From assembly GCF_003933745.1 (NCBI RefSeq), contig NZ_RSEB01000002.1:868001-932000 (forward strand): DNA of 64,000 nucleotides, written 5' to 3'. Under the pieces are notes generated by a model that saw nothing but the letters and a program-made list of their open reading frames with translations, was not told the origin of the DNA and ran no database searches. The position numbers and the translations under genes are program-made. This document shows, in pieces, positions 618 through 55,328 of the stretch. The stretch's first letter is position 1. Each line of letters opens with the position of its first letter. This stretch comes from Glycomyces terrestris. Its GTDB lineage: Bacteria; Actinomycetota; Actinomycetes; Mycobacteriales; Micromonosporaceae.

Positions 618-1379
618 ATGAGCAAGCTCGAGATCCGCGACCTGCACGTCTCGGTCAACACCGACGAAGGCGCCAAGCCGATCCTGCACGGCGTCGACCT
701 CACCATCAACTCCGGGGAGACCCACGCCATCATGGGCCCCAACGGCTCCGGCAAGTCGACCCTGGCCTACTCGCTGGCCGGGCACCCGAAGTACGAGATC
801 ACCGGCGGCACGGTCCTCCTCGACGGCGACGACGTCCTCGAGATGAGCGTCGACGAGCGCGCCCGCGCCGGCCTCTTCCTCGCCATGCAGTACCCGGTCG
901 AGGTCCCCGGCGTCAGCGTCTCCAACTTCCTGCGCACCGCCAAGACCGCGGTCGACGGCGAGGCCCCCAAGCTCCGCACCTGGATGAAGGACCTCAAGGG
1001 CGCCATGGCCGAGCTGAAGATGGACGAGGCGTTCATCAACCGCAACGTCAACGAGGGCTTCTCCGGCGGCGAGAAGAAGCGCCACGAGATCGTCCAGATG
1101 GAGCTCCTCAAGCCCAAGTTCGCGATCCTCGACGAGACCGACTCCGGCCTCGACGTCGACGCCCTCCGCGTCGTCTCCGAGGGCATCAACCACGCCAAGG
1201 AGACCACGAACTCCGGCGTCCTCCTCATCACCCACTACACCCGCATCCTGCGGTACGTGAAGCCCGACTTCGTGCACGTCTTCGTCGACGGCCGGATCGC
1301 CGAGGAAGGCGGCCCGGAGCTCGCCGAGAAGCTCGAGGCCGAAGGCTACGAGTCCTACGTCGGCACGAAGGCCGCCTAG
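618..1379 (+). CDS. sufC: Fe-S cluster assembly ATPase SufC
   Basis: This 253-residue ABC-type ATPase powers the SufBC2D scaffold. Walker A GPNGSGKST is at residues 40-48, followed by the Q-loop region AMQYPVEVPG, the SufC-type signature FSGGEKKRHE and Walker B FAILDETDSGLD. There is no membrane segment, which agrees with SufC being a soluble ABC ATPase not involved in transport. The ATG at 618 is chosen because it begins at the canonical SufC N-terminus and follows an AGAGGA ribosome site; upstream in-frame sequence is merely the shadow of the Rieske gene. It sits 14 bp after the ferredoxin gene and 14 bp before sufS. Confidence 0.97.
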   Translation: MSKLEIRDLHVSVNTDEGAKPILHGVDLTINSGETHAIMGPNGSGKSTLAYSLAGHPKYEITGGTVLLDGDDVLEMSVDERARAGLFLAMQYPVEVPGVSVSNFLRTAKTAVDGEAPKLRTWMKDLKGAMAELKMDEAFINRNVNEGFSGGEKKRHEIVQMELLKPKFAILDETDSGLDVDALRVVSEGINHAKETTNSGVLLITHYTRILRYVKPDFVHVFVDGRIAEEGGPELAEKLEAEGYESYVGTKAA

Positions 1380-1393
1380 ACCAGGAGGAGCCC

Positions 1394-2662
1394 GTGGAGG
1401 CTGTCACCAAGCTCGACGTCGAGGCGATCCGCGCCGACTTCCCGATCCTCCAGCGCCGGATCGGGGACCGCGCGATCGCCTACCTGGACTCCGCTGCGAC
1501 CTCGCAGAAGCCCGTCCAGGTCGTCGAGGCCATGCGCCGCTTCACCGAGCACTCGAACGCGAACATCTCGCGCTCGGTGCACACCCTCGGGGCCGAGGCC
1601 ACCGAGGCGTACGAGGGCGCCCGCGCCCGGGTCGCCGCCTTCATCGGCGCCCCCAGCGCGAACGAAGTGGTGTTCACCAAGAACTCCACCGAGTCGATCA
1701 ACCTGCTCGCGTACGCGTTCCAGAACGCCACGCTCGACCCGCACGCCGACCCGCGGTTCCGCCTCGCGCCCGGCGACGAGATCGTCGTGACCGAGATGGA
1801 GCACCACGCGAACCTCATCCCGTGGCAGCAGCTCGCCCAGCGCACCGGCGCGACCCTGAAGTGGATCGGCATCACCGACCACGGCCGGCTCGACCTCGAG
1901 TCGATCCCCGAGGTCATCACCGAGCGCACCAGGGTCGTCTCCTTCACGCACGTCGCGAACCTGCTCGGCACGGTCAACCCGACCTCGCAGATCACCGCCC
2001 GCGCGCGCGAGGTCGGCGCCCTGGTCGGCCTCGACGCCTCCCAGTCCGTCCCCCACATTCCCGTGAACGTCGCCGAGCTCGGCGTCGACTTCATCGCCTT
2101 CACCGGCCACAAGATGCTCGGGCCCACCGGCATCGGCGTCCTGTGGGCGAAAGCGGACCTCCTCGACGCCATGCCGCCGTTCCTCACGGGCGGCTCCATG
2201 ATCAAGACCGTCACCATGGAGCGGACCACGTTCGCCGACGCGCCCGCCAAGTTCGAGGCCGGCACGCCGCCGATCGCCGAGTCCGTGGGCCTCGCCGCCG
2301 CCGTCGACTACCTCGACAAGCTCGGCATGGAGAACGTGCGCGCCCACGAGAAGGAGCTCGCCGGGTACATGCTGGAGCGGCTCGAGACCGTCGACGGCCT
2401 CGCGATCGTCGGGCCCCGCGTCCCGATCGGCCGCTCCGCCACCGTCTCCTTCACGCTCGACGGCGTCCACCCGCACGACGTCGGCCAGGTCCTCGACGCC
2501 GAGGCCGTCGCCGTCCGCGTCGGCCACCACTGCGCCAAGCCCACCTGCGACCGCTTCGGCGTCAACGCCACCACCCGCGCCTCCGCGTACGTGTACAACA
2601 CGCACGAGGAAATAGACCGGCTCGTGGAGGCGTTGGGCAAGGTGCGAAAGGTGTTCGGCTGA
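1394..2662 (+). CDS. sufS: SufS-type cysteine desulfurase
   Basis: A 422-residue class V aminotransferase-fold enzyme that removes sulfur from L-cysteine, giving alanine and an enzyme persulfide for cluster building. The PLP-binding lysine is K240 in TGHKMLGPTG, and the catalytic cysteine is C380 in GHHCAKP, the short loop characteristic of group II (SufS) enzymes. The GTG start follows AGGAGG at a spacing of about seven bases. The stop overlaps the sufU ATG (TGATGA), consistent with SufU being its sulfur-acceptor partner. Length is normal for the family. Confidence 0.97.
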   Translation: MEAVTKLDVEAIRADFPILQRRIGDRAIAYLDSAATSQKPVQVVEAMRRFTEHSNANISRSVHTLGAEATEAYEGARARVAAFIGAPSANEVVFTKNSTESINLLAYAFQNATLDPHADPRFRLAPGDEIVVTEMEHHANLIPWQQLAQRTGATLKWIGITDHGRLDLESIPEVITERTRVVSFTHVANLLGTVNPTSQITARAREVGALVGLDASQSVPHIPVNVAELGVDFIAFTGHKMLGPTGIGVLWAKADLLDAMPPFLTGGSMIKTVTMERTTFADAPAKFEAGTPPIAESVGLAAAVDYLDKLGMENVRAHEKELAGYMLERLETVDGLAIVGPRVPIGRSATVSFTLDGVHPHDVGQVLDAEAVAVRVGHHCAKPTCDRFGVNATTRASAYVYNTHEEIDRLVEALGKVRKVFG

Positions 2663-3114
2663 TGAATCTCGACGAGCTCTACCAGGAAGTCATCCTGGAC
2701 CACTACAAGCACCCGCGCGGCGCCGGCCTGCGCGAGCCCTACGAGGGCGAGTCCCACCAGGTCAACCCGACCTGCGGCGACGAGATCACCCTCCGGGTCC
2801 ACGTGGACGGCGACACGATCGGCGACGTCTCCTACGACAACGTCGGCTGCTCGATCTCCAAGGCCTCCGCCTCGGTGATGTACGAGCTGGTCAACGGCGC
2901 CACGGTGGACGACGCGCTGGCCCGCCTGGCCGAGTTCACCGAGCTCATGAACTCCAAGGGCCAGGCCGAGGGCGACGAGGAGACCCTGGAGGACGCCGTC
3001 GCGTTCGCGGGCGTCTCGAAATACCCGATGCGCGTCAAGTGCGCGCTCCTGGGCTGGATGGCGTTCAAGGACGCCCTGGTCCGCGCCTCGACTCCCGGAA
3101 GGACCGAAGCATGA
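2662..3114 (+). CDS. sufU: SufU zinc-dependent sulfurtransferase
   Basis: A 150-residue IscU/NifU-fold protein. The zinc-site residues of Gram-positive SufU are recognisable: C38 and D40 in NPTCGDE, C63 in NVGCSISKAS and a third cysteine in RVKCALLGW. It also has the insertion between the second and third ligands that separates SufU from IscU. In Bacillus and mycobacteria SufU accepts sulfur from SufS by zinc-ligand exchange and is not a scaffold; I transfer that role here. Start and stop overlap the neighbours by 1 and 4 bases. Confidence 0.95.
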   Translation: MNLDELYQEVILDHYKHPRGAGLREPYEGESHQVNPTCGDEITLRVHVDGDTIGDVSYDNVGCSISKASASVMYELVNGATVDDALARLAEFTELMNSKGQAEGDEETLEDAVAFAGVSKYPMRVKCALLGWMAFKDALVRASTPGRTEA

Positions 3115-3449
3115 CCGACACCGTGAAGGCGAAAGAGGACGACATCCTCGAGGCCATGAAGGACGTCGTCGACCCCGAGCTGGGCATCAACGTCGTCGAC
3201 CTGGGCCTGATCTACGGCGTCCACGTCGACGAGTCGAACGTCGCGACCCTCGACATGACCCTCACCTCCGCGGCCTGCCCGCTCACCGACGTCATCGAGG
3301 ACCAGTCCCGCTCGGCCCTCTGCTCGGGCGCCGAGGGCGGCATCGTCTCCGACCTCAAGATCAACTGGGTGTGGATCCCGCCGTGGGGTCCCGACAAGAT
3401 CACCGACGACGGCCGCGACCAGCTCCGCGCCCTCGGCTTCAACGTCTGA
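3111..3449 (+). CDS. SufT-like MIP18/DUF59 Fe-S assembly factor
   Basis: A 112-residue DUF59 (MIP18) protein. It has the family patterns DVVDPELGINVVDLGLIY and LTSAACPLTD with a single conserved cysteine, then VWIPPWGPDKIT near the end. Such proteins act in maturation of Fe-S proteins and close suf operons in actinobacteria and firmicutes, where the gene is often called sufT or paaD-like. The ATG overlaps the sufU stop by four bases. It is the last gene of this operon; a 20-bp gap leads to the next gene, so read-through into it is possible. Confidence 0.9.
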   Translation: MTDTVKAKEDDILEAMKDVVDPELGINVVDLGLIYGVHVDESNVATLDMTLTSAACPLTDVIEDQSRSALCSGAEGGIVSDLKINWVWIPPWGPDKITDDGRDQLRALGFNV

Positions 3450-3469
3450 GGCGCGGGAACGCGGCGACC

Positions 3470-4975
3470 ATGGTCAAGATCCGCCCCGCCGCGGGCGGCG
3501 GCACGATCGTCGAGGTCGAACCCGAGCGCCTGCGGCGCTGGGTCGAGAACTTCGCGGCGCGGAACGGCGGCATCGCCGCCCACCACGCCCAAGGCGACGC
3601 CTGGACGATCGAAGCGAACGAGGGAGCGCCGGCCGGCCCCGGTGAACCTGTCAGCCGTACCTCGGCACAGGTCCAGTGGGCGCTGGCCGGCGGCCTCCCC
3701 GCGGGCTGGCTTCTCGACGACGACCCCCTCGTCGCCGCCGAGCGCCTGAGCGCCTACGCGCTCGAACCGCGCGTGATCGCGGTGCTGCTGGCCCGCAAGG
3801 GCGCCTACTCGGTCGGCGTCCTCGACGACGGCCGCATCCTGGCCTCGAAGACCGACACCGCTTACGTCCAGGGCAAGACCAAGGCGGGAGGCCAGTCCCA
3901 GCAGCGCTTCGCGCGCCGCCGCGAGGGCCAGGCCCACGCCGCCGAGAAGCGCGCCCGCGACGCGGTCGTCGCCGTCCTCGGCGGCGCCCGCTTCGACGCC
4001 CTCGTCACCGGCGGCGTCGTCGACGGCATCCTGGACGACCCCCGCCTCGCGCACCTCCGCGCCGCGGTCCACTTCGGCGACATCGCCGAGCCGAAGCAGT
4101 CCCTGCTCACCGCGACCGCGTACCGCGCCATCGGCTTCCGCGTCAGGATCGTCCCGGGCGCCGCCGACTTATACTCAGGCGTTCCCGCTTCCTCCACGAA
4201 GGACGCCGCCTTGCGCACCTCGCCCGCCCGCGCGATCCTCCTCGCGACGGCCGTCCAGCTCGCCCGCTTCGGCCTCATCGTCGGCGCGCTCGCCATCGCC
4301 CCCGACCTCGGCATCCACGGCTGGTACCAGGGGCTGTTCGCCAACGCGGTCTGCGCGCTCTTCGCGATCGCCGTCGTCACCCGGCTCCGGCTGTGGCGGC
4401 GCTCCGGCCTCTTCGCGCTCCGGCGCTCGGGCCGCGCCGCGCTCCTGCTGCTGCCCTTCGTGTTCGAAGCCCTGGTCTGGCTCGCCTACCCGGGCGGCTT
4501 CGGCCCGCTCGCGCCCGGCTACGGCCTCTGGGCCCTCACGCTCCTGCTCGTCGGCGTGAACGAGGAGCTCACCTCCCGCGTCGCGGTCCTCGAGAGCCTC
4601 CGCACCGCGTTCAGCTCCAGGTGGGCGGTCCTGATCGCCGGGGTCATGTTCGGCCTCCAGCACCTGTCGCTGCTCGCCACGGGGGACCCGTCCACCGAGG
4701 ACGTGGTCACGATCCTGGTCCTCACCTCGATCTACGGCATCGCCCTGGGCGCCTACCAGGTCCGCTTCGCCTGGGTCCTGCCGCTCGTCCTCGTCCACGC
4801 CGCCAGCGACTTCACCCAGATCCTCACCGCCGACCCGGTCCCCTTCGCGATGCACGCCGTCCTCAGCCTCGGACTCCTCGCGTTCGGACTCCGGCTCCTC
4901 GCCGGCCGCCGCGAGGGCCCGACCGGCGCCGCTCTCGTCCCGCCGTGGAGGGGCCCCGTCGCCGGCCGCACCTGA
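3470..4975 (+). CDS. Vms1-like peptidyl-tRNA hydrolase (acVLRF1) fused to CPBP membrane protease
   Basis: A 501-residue two-part protein. Residues 1 to about 235 resemble the actinobacterial Vms1-like release factor family (acVLRF1), with the catalytic-loop motif KAGGQSQQRFARRR, which would hydrolyse peptidyl-tRNA on stalled ribosomes. Residues about 248-501 form a multi-pass CPBP (CAAX-type) intramembrane protease: EELTSR (EExxxR), FGLQHL (FxxxH) and a final HAASD. The frame is unbroken. The junction is odd: a rare TTA leucine codon at 4169-4171 (residue 234), a TATACT hexamer at 4170-4175, and a TTG at 4211 preceded by AAGGA seven bases upstream. A membrane-tethered fusion or an internal second gene are both possible. 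ATG 3470 opens the family's N-terminus but has only a weak ribosome site. Confidence 0.75.
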   Translation: MVKIRPAAGGGTIVEVEPERLRRWVENFAARNGGIAAHHAQGDAWTIEANEGAPAGPGEPVSRTSAQVQWALAGGLPAGWLLDDDPLVAAERLSAYALEPRVIAVLLARKGAYSVGVLDDGRILASKTDTAYVQGKTKAGGQSQQRFARRREGQAHAAEKRARDAVVAVLGGARFDALVTGGVVDGILDDPRLAHLRAAVHFGDIAEPKQSLLTATAYRAIGFRVRIVPGAADLYSGVPASSTKDAALRTSPARAILLATAVQLARFGLIVGALAIAPDLGIHGWYQGLFANAVCALFAIAVVTRLRLWRRSGLFALRRSGRAALLLLPFVFEALVWLAYPGGFGPLAPGYGLWALTLLLVGVNEELTSRVAVLESLRTAFSSRWAVLIAGVMFGLQHLSLLATGDPSTEDVVTILVLTSIYGIALGAYQVRFAWVLPLVLVHAASDFTQILTADPVPFAMHAVLSLGLLAFGLRLLAGRREGPTGAALVPPWRGPVAGRT

Positions 4976-4981
4976 CCGCAT

Positions 4982-5020
4982 GCGAAGGCCGCCCCGGCAA
5001 CTTGCCGGGGCGGCCTTCGC
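4982..5020. terminator. bidirectional hairpin terminator between convergent genes
   Basis: A perfect 19-bp inverted repeat (4982-5000 with 5002-5020) lies between the stop codons of the fusion protease gene and the convergent oxidoreductase gene. It lacks a long T-tract, as is usual in very GC-rich genomes. Its position and symmetry suit termination from both sides. Confidence 0.85.
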
Positions 5021-5027
5021 GTCCGTG

Positions 5028-5645
5028 CTATGCGGCGGCGAACGTGAGGGCGGTCGCCCAGCCTCCCTTGATCTGCTCCTGGGCCTTCATGTGCAGGAGC
5101 TGGAAGGCTTCGAGGGCGGCGGCGTGCTTGAGGCCGCCGACGTCGATCGGGCGCAGGTCGGCGTCGAGGCACAGGCCGGTGATCGTCTTCTTGGCCTCGG
5201 GGTCGTCGCCCGCGATGAAGACGTCGAGCGGCGTGGAGTTCGCGAGCCGGGAGGCGAACGTGGTGTTGAACGCCTTGACGACCCGGGCGCCGGGCGCGGC
5301 CGCCGCGATCTCCTCGGCCGCCGACTTCCCCGGCGGCGTCACGAGGCCGTCGAAGGTGTCGTAGTCGACCGGGTTGCAGATGTCGACGACGGTCTTGCCG
5401 GCGAGGTCGCCGGCCCACATCTCCGCGACCTGCTTGCTGCCCTCGTACGGCGTGGCGAGCACGACGACCTCGGCGCCGGCGGCGTTGTTCAGCGGTTCGC
5501 CGGCCGCGCTGTCGCCGAGCTCGGCGGCCAGGTCGGCGGCCTTGTCGGGTTCGCGGTCGGCGATGCGGACGCGGTGTCCCCCGCGCACGAGCCGCAGGCC
5601 GATCCCGCGGGCCATGTTCCCCGAGCCCACGATCAGGACTTCCAT
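5028..5645 (-). CDS. NADPH-dependent F420 reductase-like oxidoreductase
   Basis: A 205-residue Rossmann protein of the F420-dependent NADP oxidoreductase family (COG2085). The dinucleotide motif VGSGNMARG lies at the N-terminus, followed by an acidic/basic strand end (ADREPDKA), ATPYE and VKAFNTTFA typical of this family. Characterised members pass hydride between NADPH and the deazaflavin F420, which actinobacteria make; many relatives have unknown substrates, so F420 use here is inferred. The ATG follows AGGAGG at nine bases. It is a single-gene unit: the next gene upstream on this strand ends 135 bp away behind a hairpin. Confidence 0.8.
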   Translation of the reverse strand: MEVLIVGSGNMARGIGLRLVRGGHRVRIADREPDKAADLAAELGDSAAGEPLNNAAGAEVVVLATPYEGSKQVAEMWAGDLAGKTVVDICNPVDYDTFDGLVTPPGKSAAEEIAAAAPGARVVKAFNTTFASRLANSTPLDVFIAGDDPEAKKTITGLCLDADLRPIDVGGLKHAAALEAFQLLHMKAQEQIKGGWATALTFAAA

Positions 5646-5747
5646 CGGTGGTTCCTCCTTCTGCCGTCCTGTTGAGACACTCGTGCGGGGCGGCAGGGGG
5701 AGGACGAAGGGGGCGGGGGGCTCGCCGGTTCGCCCCTTGGAGCGTAG

Positions 5748-5780: not shown

Positions 5781-7691
5781 CTATTGGGGCTTCTTGTCGA
5801 CCGCCCAGGAGCCGGCGGGGACGATCACGTGCCCGACCTGCGCCTCCTTCTCGGTGTGGTTGACGATGAAGCGCCATTCGCCGCGGTCGACGACGTCGAG
5901 GCCGGGCCCGCCGGGGCCGGCGAGTTCGAGCTCCTCGAAGAGGCGGTCCCAGGCGTCGTCGCCGAGCTTGCAGGAGACGTACCAGGCCTCGCCCTCGCCG
6001 AACGGGTTGACGGTGACGGCGGGCTGGCCCTCGATGAGGTCGCCGGTGGCGTACTGGGTGACGCACTGGGCGCCGCGCAGCTCCACGAGTTCGCAGAAGC
6101 GCTCGGCGGCCCCGAAGTTCCACAGGGCGCGCCGCTCGCCGGCGGGCTGGGGGAGGTGCTCGGTGACGCGGATGCCGAACAGGTCGGTGAGGCCGCCGAG
6201 GTACCCGTCGAGCCACACCTGGCAGTGCTCGTCGACGGCGCCGGTGAGGTAGGAGGCGACGAGGCGCCCGCCGCCGGCGGTGAACCAGCGGAGGTTCTCG
6301 GCCGCGGCCTGCGACAGCAGGTACGTGGTCGGGGCGATCACGGTCGAGTACTTCGACAGGTCGCCCTCGGGGGCGGCGAAGTCGGCGACGACGCCGCGGT
6401 CGCGCAGGACGCGGTGGATCTGGGCGACGTTCTCGAGGTAGTCGACGGGCGCCGGGAGGTGCGCGGCGGCGGTGGCCCACCACGACTCGGGGCTCCACAG
6501 GATCGCCACGGACGCCTCGACCGGCGCGGCGACGGTGTGCGCGATGCCCGGGAGCGTGTTGCCGAACTCGGCGACCTCGCGGAACATGCGGGTGTGCTTG
6601 CCCGCGTGGGGGAGGAGCGCGGAGTGCCACTGCTCGGCGCCGCCGCGCCCGGCCCGCCACTGGAAGAACATGGCGCCCTTGGAGCCGCGGCTGATGTGGA
6701 TCATCGAGTGCCGGGCCATGCGGCCGGGGGACTTGGCGATCGCGCCGTCCTTGGAGTGGACGGACGCGGCGGCCTGCTCCATGAGGAGCCAGTCGCCGCC
6801 GCCGGCCCAGGACCGCGACAGGTCGGCGTGGAGGGCGCTCTGCTGCTCGGCCCGCTCGTCGGGGGCCGAGGGGTAGGAGTCGAACGCGACGAGGTCGACC
6901 TCGCCGGCCCACTTCCACGGGTCGACCGGGACCCACTGCCCGAACACGAGGTTCGTGGTGATCGGGACCGCGGGGTTCGCCGCGCGCAGGATCTCGCGCT
7001 GCTCCTTGTAGTGCTCCAGCATCGCGTCGGAGGTGAAGCGCTTGAAGTCGAGCTCGTGCGCGGGGTTGCCGAGGTACTGGGTGGCGCGCGGGGCGAGGAT
7101 CTGGTCCCAGTCGCCGTAGTGCTGGCTCCAGAACGAGCCCCACCACGCGGCGTTGAGCGCGTCGAGCGTCCCGTACTTCGCCTCCAGCCAGGCGCGGAAC
7201 GCGCGCTCGGCGTGCTCGGAGTGGCTGATCGACCCGTACTCGTTGTGGACGTGCCACATCGCGAGCGCGGGGTGCTCGGCGTACCGCTCGGCGAGGGCGG
7301 CGGCGATGCGCCGGGACGCCTCCCGGTAGGCGGGCGCGCAGACGTCGTACGTGTCGCGCGAGCCGTGGACCTGCCGCACCCCGTCGGGGCGCACGTTGAG
7401 CGCGTCGGGGTGCGCGAGGGTGAACCACGGCGGCGGCGAGGCGGTCGGGGTGGCGAGGTCGACGCGGATGCCGCCGGCGTGGAGCTTCTCCAGGACGGTG
7501 TCGAGCCAGCCGAAGTCGTACTCGCCTTCGCGCGGTTCGAGCCGCGCCCACGAGAAGACGCCGACGGTCACGAGGTTGACGCCGGCCTCGCGCATGAGGA
7601 GGACATCGTCGTCCCAGACCTCCTCGGGCCACTGCTCGGGGTTGTAGTCGCCGCCGTAGCTCAGGCCGTCGAGGCCGAGGGGCCAGTCCAT
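5781..7691 (-). CDS. GH42 beta-galactosidase
   Basis: A 636-residue cytosolic glycoside hydrolase of family 42. Features are the N-terminal SYGGDYNPEQWP motif, the acid/base glutamate E151 in WHVHNEYG, and the nucleophile region LLMEQAA near residue 305. A trimerisation domain and a C-terminal beta domain follow, at normal family length. No signal peptide, so it acts on imported galactosides such as lactose or galacto-oligosaccharides. Of three in-frame ATGs the third (MDWPLGLDG) is chosen, because AGGAG lies eight bases before it and GH42 proteins begin there. A palindromic operator at 7750-7778 precedes it. No transporter is adjacent, so the substrate cannot be refined. Confidence 0.93.
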   Translation of the reverse strand: MDWPLGLDGLSYGGDYNPEQWPEEVWDDDVLLMREAGVNLVTVGVFSWARLEPREGEYDFGWLDTVLEKLHAGGIRVDLATPTASPPPWFTLAHPDALNVRPDGVRQVHGSRDTYDVCAPAYREASRRIAAALAERYAEHPALAMWHVHNEYGSISHSEHAERAFRAWLEAKYGTLDALNAAWWGSFWSQHYGDWDQILAPRATQYLGNPAHELDFKRFTSDAMLEHYKEQREILRAANPAVPITTNLVFGQWVPVDPWKWAGEVDLVAFDSYPSAPDERAEQQSALHADLSRSWAGGGDWLLMEQAAASVHSKDGAIAKSPGRMARHSMIHISRGSKGAMFFQWRAGRGGAEQWHSALLPHAGKHTRMFREVAEFGNTLPGIAHTVAAPVEASVAILWSPESWWATAAAHLPAPVDYLENVAQIHRVLRDRGVVADFAAPEGDLSKYSTVIAPTTYLLSQAAAENLRWFTAGGGRLVASYLTGAVDEHCQVWLDGYLGGLTDLFGIRVTEHLPQPAGERRALWNFGAAERFCELVELRGAQCVTQYATGDLIEGQPAVTVNPFGEGEAWYVSCKLGDDAWDRLFEELELAGPGGPGLDVVDRGEWRFIVNHTEKEAQVGHVIVPAGSWAVDKKPQ

Positions 7692-7749
7692 GTGGGGACT
7701 CCTCACATCCATGGCTCGCAAGCGTCGCCGGGAGGCGCGCGGAAGGGGG

Positions 7750-17993: not shown

Positions 17994-18022
17994 CTGACAG
18001 ATCGTCCGCGGATTCATATACT
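17994..18022 (+). promoter_or_regulatory. SigA-type promoter of the glucosaminidase gene (probably leaderless)
   Basis: CTGACA (17994-17999) and TATACT (18017-18022) are each five-of-six matches to -35 and -10 consensus with an ideal 17-bp spacer. The predicted transcription start, about seven bases beyond the -10, falls within two bases of the ATG at 18031, and no ribosome site exists. Confidence 0.75.
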
Positions 18023-55299: not shown

Positions 55300-55328
55300 T
55301 TGGTGGGAAGATCGTGAGCGCATAGACT
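55300..55328 (+). promoter_or_regulatory. candidate metK promoter
   Basis: TTGGTG (55300-55305) and TAGACT (55323-55328) are spaced 17 bp, with three and four consensus matches. The resulting leader of about 70 bases contains a CGCCGC/GCGGCG hairpin (55355-55369) followed by TGTTTTG. The same GC sequence is inverted at 55281-55292, upstream of the promoter. Confidence 0.45.

Follow-up and report, generated by a model that had tools for sequence, protein, structure and literature searches.

Probable loss of a stop codon between neighbouring acVLRF1-family hydrolase and CPBP protease genes in a Glycomyces genome

CPBP/Rce1-like intramembrane proteases (PF02517) are recognized by the family motifs EExxxR, FxxxH and Hxxx(D/N), and the protease described here has these motifs, together with several hydrophobic segments, in common with them. 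Unlike its three free-standing orthologues in the same genus (246, 250 and 255 aa), it starts inside a longer open frame. The first part of that frame belongs to acVLRF1, the actinobacterial/chloroflexi VLRF-1 family (NF041024, PF18859; PMC6514570), and shares with it nearly the full profile and the GGQ loop; members usually end at about residue 227, whereas the frame here runs on into a second gene. In the main text of PMC6514570, where the term acVLRF-1 is used, the words 'protease' and 'membrane' occur zero times. The merger itself recalls C-terminal extension by stop-codon loss ('The Recent De Novo Origin of Protein C-Termini', PMC4494051), in which loss of a stop likewise lets translation run on as far as the following stop in frame, with the difference that the sequence added here is mostly an existing in-frame gene and not only noncoding DNA. 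No report of VLRF1 together with CPBP, or of Glycomyces with CPBP, was found in the literature searched, which mostly excluded subscription papers, and among the titles listed for stop loss and gene fusion none described this hydrolase-protease pair.

The DNA analysed, called the window throughout, is a 64-kb stretch of contig C8 from an assembly of 15 contigs and 5.24 Mb (99.46% complete, 0% contamination). As read from this assembly, a frame of 501 codons runs from ATG 3470 to the stop TGA at 4973-4975 and is stop-free inside, which agrees with the unbroken frame noted in the first-pass annotation, and a 501-aa single chain is, as the bases stand, encodable in this genome. The merger of the two halves hinges on a single codon, a TCA for which the sister species G. 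artemisiae has a stop (Table 1). We propose, with a probability of about 0.8, that loss of this stop merged two adjacent genes, and that the free protease would still be produced from its own signals alongside a merged chain translated from upstream messages.

Table 1. Features at and around the merged frame (window positions).
Feature	Position	Strand	Basis or remark
Class-V aminotransferase gene, one of the suf-type genes upstream of the hydrolase	1394-2662		
FeS_assembly_P protein gene, 112 aa	3111-3449	+	PF01883, E 1.7e-19
acVLRF1-family peptidyl-tRNA hydrolase part, residues 1-235	3470-4174	+	NF041024 and PF18859 profile matches
-10-like hexamer TATACT, putative protease promoter element	4170-4175	+	TANACT in 5/5 aligned genomes
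TCA (Ser236), probable lost stop codon	4175-4177	+	DNA alignment; TGA in G. artemisiae
Ribosome-binding-site-like GAAGGAC, 6 bases before TTG 4211	4198-4204	+	AAGGAC invariant in five aligned sequences
Intramembrane protease gene of the CPBP (Rce1-like) family, 254 aa from a TTG start	4211-4975	+	PF02517; aligned orthologues
Strong hairpin separating the protease gene from the convergent gene	4980-5022		Folding of positions 4973-5025
Convergent gene downstream of the hairpin	5028-5645	-	

Profile searches bore out the two family assignments that had first been made from motifs alone, an acVLRF1/Vms1-like hydrolase with a KAGGQSQQRF loop and a CPBP protease with EELTSR and FGLQHL. Residues 13-227 matched the acVLRF1 model NF041024 (E 1.3e-48, 165.5 bits against a cut-off of 125) over positions 2-207 of its 208, PF18859 was matched with E 7.1e-29 (101.1 bits against a gathering score of 27.1), and the GGQ-type catalytic loop KAGGQSQQRF was found in the translation. 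The first half is thus a member of acVLRF1, and its hydrolase activity is predicted from profile and loop. In the second half, residues 353-448 matched the Rce1-like model PF02517 (E 2.1e-11, 44.4 bits against a gathering score of 22.4), and the EELTSR, FGLQH and HAASD motifs are intact and invariant across the four aligned orthologues; identity to the free-standing orthologues, which start at an aligned TTG, ATG and ATG, is 80, 76 and 73%. Hydropathy analysis gave overlapping hydrophobic stretches beyond residue 255 and one such stretch within the hydrolase (166-184), which is probably no membrane span. Structure prediction for the 501-aa chain from a seven-row alignment produced a low-confidence model (mean pLDDT 54.4, pTM 0.39), in which the linker 229-250 is among the stretches with pLDDT below 50.

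The same two genes are separate in the relatives used for comparison within the genus, G. artemisiae, G. lechevalierae and G. paridis. These are the three relatives that matched over both halves when 61 genomes were searched, of which 53 gave a match; each has one internal stop, and in all three, whose adjacent copies are intact, it parts hydrolase from protease. The stop is TGA, TAG and TGA respectively, lies 222, 218 and 214 codons past the match start and, counted from its first base, precedes the protease start by 36, 66 and 72 bases. In a further relative (G019, locus L005) the hydrolase ends in TAA and is accompanied by a protease relic (about 1358-1566, minus strand) that reads ATC where the start should be and lacks most of its middle; this relative has therefore lost the protease. 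Among the 22 Glycomyces genomes, the window's included, the pair occurs in four and the wrecked relic in one, while 17 carry acVLRF1 with no close copy of the window's protease (in three of the 17, remote CPBP matches of 28-30% identity lie on contigs other than that of acVLRF1); on these counts the protease is an optional neighbour of acVLRF1. The genus search of these 22 genomes revealed no merged frame besides the window's. In an order-wide search of 397 genomes, a draw to which G. lechevalierae did not belong, 285 had a match, up to three candidates were scored per genome and, among the matches listed, the window's is the only one to span both halves stop-free. The first-pass annotation had suggested looking in related genomes for the same two-domain order and had named relatives that always encode two separate proteins as a refutation, which is what was observed: a joint frame was present in 0/3 relatives with an intact adjacent pair, and all three encode two proteins.

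Between the window and G. artemisiae the alignment is gapless from the hydrolase end to the protease start, which rules out that the merger arose by frameshift. The two sequences are sisters in the acVLRF1 tree (support 99/98, in a tree where many other forks are weak), and since G. artemisiae and both intact pairs outside this sister group keep the stop, its loss most likely took place in the window's lineage. The alternative that a sequencing or assembly error altered the base, the true codon still being a stop and the merged frame absent, appears unlikely. A base-call error would be expected to give an identical picture, as the merged frame rests on one base in one assembly: contig C8 belongs to the source assembly itself and so provides no independent check on the bases, and a search that may omit records of the window's own genome found no second genome of the species. 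Against an error, the assembly is of good quality by the figures given above, and real divergence from G. artemisiae is high (synonymous pS 0.257 and 0.33), which would make a true substitution a priori likelier than a consensus error. Moreover, hydrolase ends vary within the genus, acVLRF1 frames stopping anywhere from 214 to 236 codons past the match start in 20 of 21 same-genus relatives (L022, misread, set aside).

We then considered the start signals of the protease gene. The TANACT hexamer, AAGGAC and the start position are aligned in five sequences, the window's and those of four relatives (one being the relic, with ATC at the start), and in the other four aligned genomes the hexamer reads TACACT, TACACT, TAGACT and TAAACT. 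The second half is accordingly not devoid of start signals of its own, predicted though these are. A pattern combining TANACT, ribosome-binding site and a start that opens a run of 60 or more codons, defined post hoc after the site had been seen, occurs once over both strands of the 64 kb together, at the junction, and on average 0.05 times in 40 mononucleotide shuffles of a single strand. A consensus scan for sigma-70 promoters gave none in 3000-5700. From conservation among the five related sequences, we infer an internal promoter for the protease gene. TANACT is itself rarer in the window than chance would have it, with four occurrences against 8.6 expected. Two of the other three lie upstream of gene starts, those at 55323-55328 and 18017-18022 being upstream of metK and of a glucosaminidase-domain gene, with no such gene start after the third; the scarce TANACT hexamers upstream of gene starts may offer a lead to the -10 element of Glycomyces.

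These data bear on the role that had been imagined for the fusion, nascent-chain release at the membrane beside a protease. If it were functional, a peptidyl-tRNA hydrolase would be tethered to the membrane next to an intramembrane protease and serve in quality control of membrane proteins while they are nascent. In favour of this, a single chain is encodable and neither half has lost its motifs. We regard this as very unlikely, and the proposal is left unsupported by the two-gene relatives, the conserved -10-like element, ribosome-binding site and start, and the optional nature of the protease. All three relatives with intact copies encode two proteins, the protease retains its own predicted start signals, and of the 22 Glycomyces 17 combine acVLRF1 with no close protease copy, one more having just the relic. 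Where distant proteases are listed (G051, G127, G394 and G067), the place of acVLRF1 is listed as well for the first two: the distant protease of G051 is on another contig from acVLRF1, and that of G127 is 1.2 Mb away from it. Nor does coding constraint separate the possibilities. Relative to G. artemisiae, the hydrolase has a dN/dS of 0.305 and the protease one of 0.325 (0.31-0.50 and 0.26-0.52, respectively, across the six pairs of four species), and both halves look to be under constraint; these values mostly reflect the time before the stop was lost, and two working genes would give the same ones whether merged or not.

One feature of the relatives is more than a pure two-gene reading requires: hydrolase stop and protease start keep the same phase. 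The number of bases from one to the other is divisible by three in each intact pair and at the relic position (36, 66, 72 and 39 bases) although several indels lie between, and just one stop interrupts the two halves in each of the three intact pairs. By a rough count over G. lechevalierae, G. paridis and G019, which leaves out G. artemisiae as having no indel relative to the window, chance agreement in phase would occur about once in 27. This could be explained by stop-codon readthrough, with the two-gene relatives making a little fused protein and the window's lineage having made the fusion constitutive. In its fuller form, the pair would be held in phase across Glycomyces because a little membrane-bound hydrolase from readthrough is of benefit; loss of the stop would then have fixed the fusion in the window's lineage, with the internal start kept to supply free protease. 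We consider the chance of either version very slim indeed: the argument from phase is post hoc and comes from four related sequences, the stop and the base after it differ among them (TGAG, TAGT, TGAC and TAAA), and stops are presumably scarce in G+C-rich spacers in any case. The constant phase of the pair in a few relatives is a weak hint of readthrough.

Under the stop-loss reading that we favour, a point change from TGA to TCA would have removed the hydrolase stop in the window's Glycomyces lineage. The protease gene would already have been in the hydrolase frame, with its start 36 bases on, and because of this prior alignment the open frame extends to the protease stop. Free protease would still be made from TTG 4211 on a short message of its own, while ribosomes on messages from the suf-type genes upstream may also produce some hydrolase that carries the protease as a tail, a recent, lineage-specific extension. 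Given that a changed stop joined ordinary neighbours and that the second gene keeps apparent start signals, there is little reason to posit a dedicated quality-control machine, and the merged frame so far says nothing about a new quality-control pathway. The locus illustrates that a single base can be all that separates a striking two-domain frame, present in one genome, from a pair of ordinary genes. Should the merged chain be made, the strain would constitute a natural experiment on whether a ribosome-rescue hydrolase tolerates a membrane-protein tail.

The FeS_assembly_P gene, whose product we take to be DUF59/SufT-like, stops 20 bases short of the hydrolase's ATG, and in 22/22 Glycomyces loci such a gene is located upstream of acVLRF1 within about 155 bases. 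On the other side of the merged frame, positions 4973-5025 have a folding energy of -46.5 kcal/mol (z -7.5), and the hairpin formed is a probable terminator; it is missing from the output of a terminator scan that demands a T run. Beyond the convergent gene lies a GH42 beta-galactosidase gene (5781-7721, minus strand; PF02449). A Phd/YefM-type antitoxin-like frame is found downstream of acVLRF1 or of the protease in five Glycomyces genomes, being assigned by a Pfam match in L002 (3758-4069) and by eye in L004, L005, L010 and L012. Finally, in another Glycomyces locus (L008, genome G016) a similar module of TACACT and GAAGGAC stands beyond the acVLRF1 stop and before a different frame, judged kinase-like by eye only.
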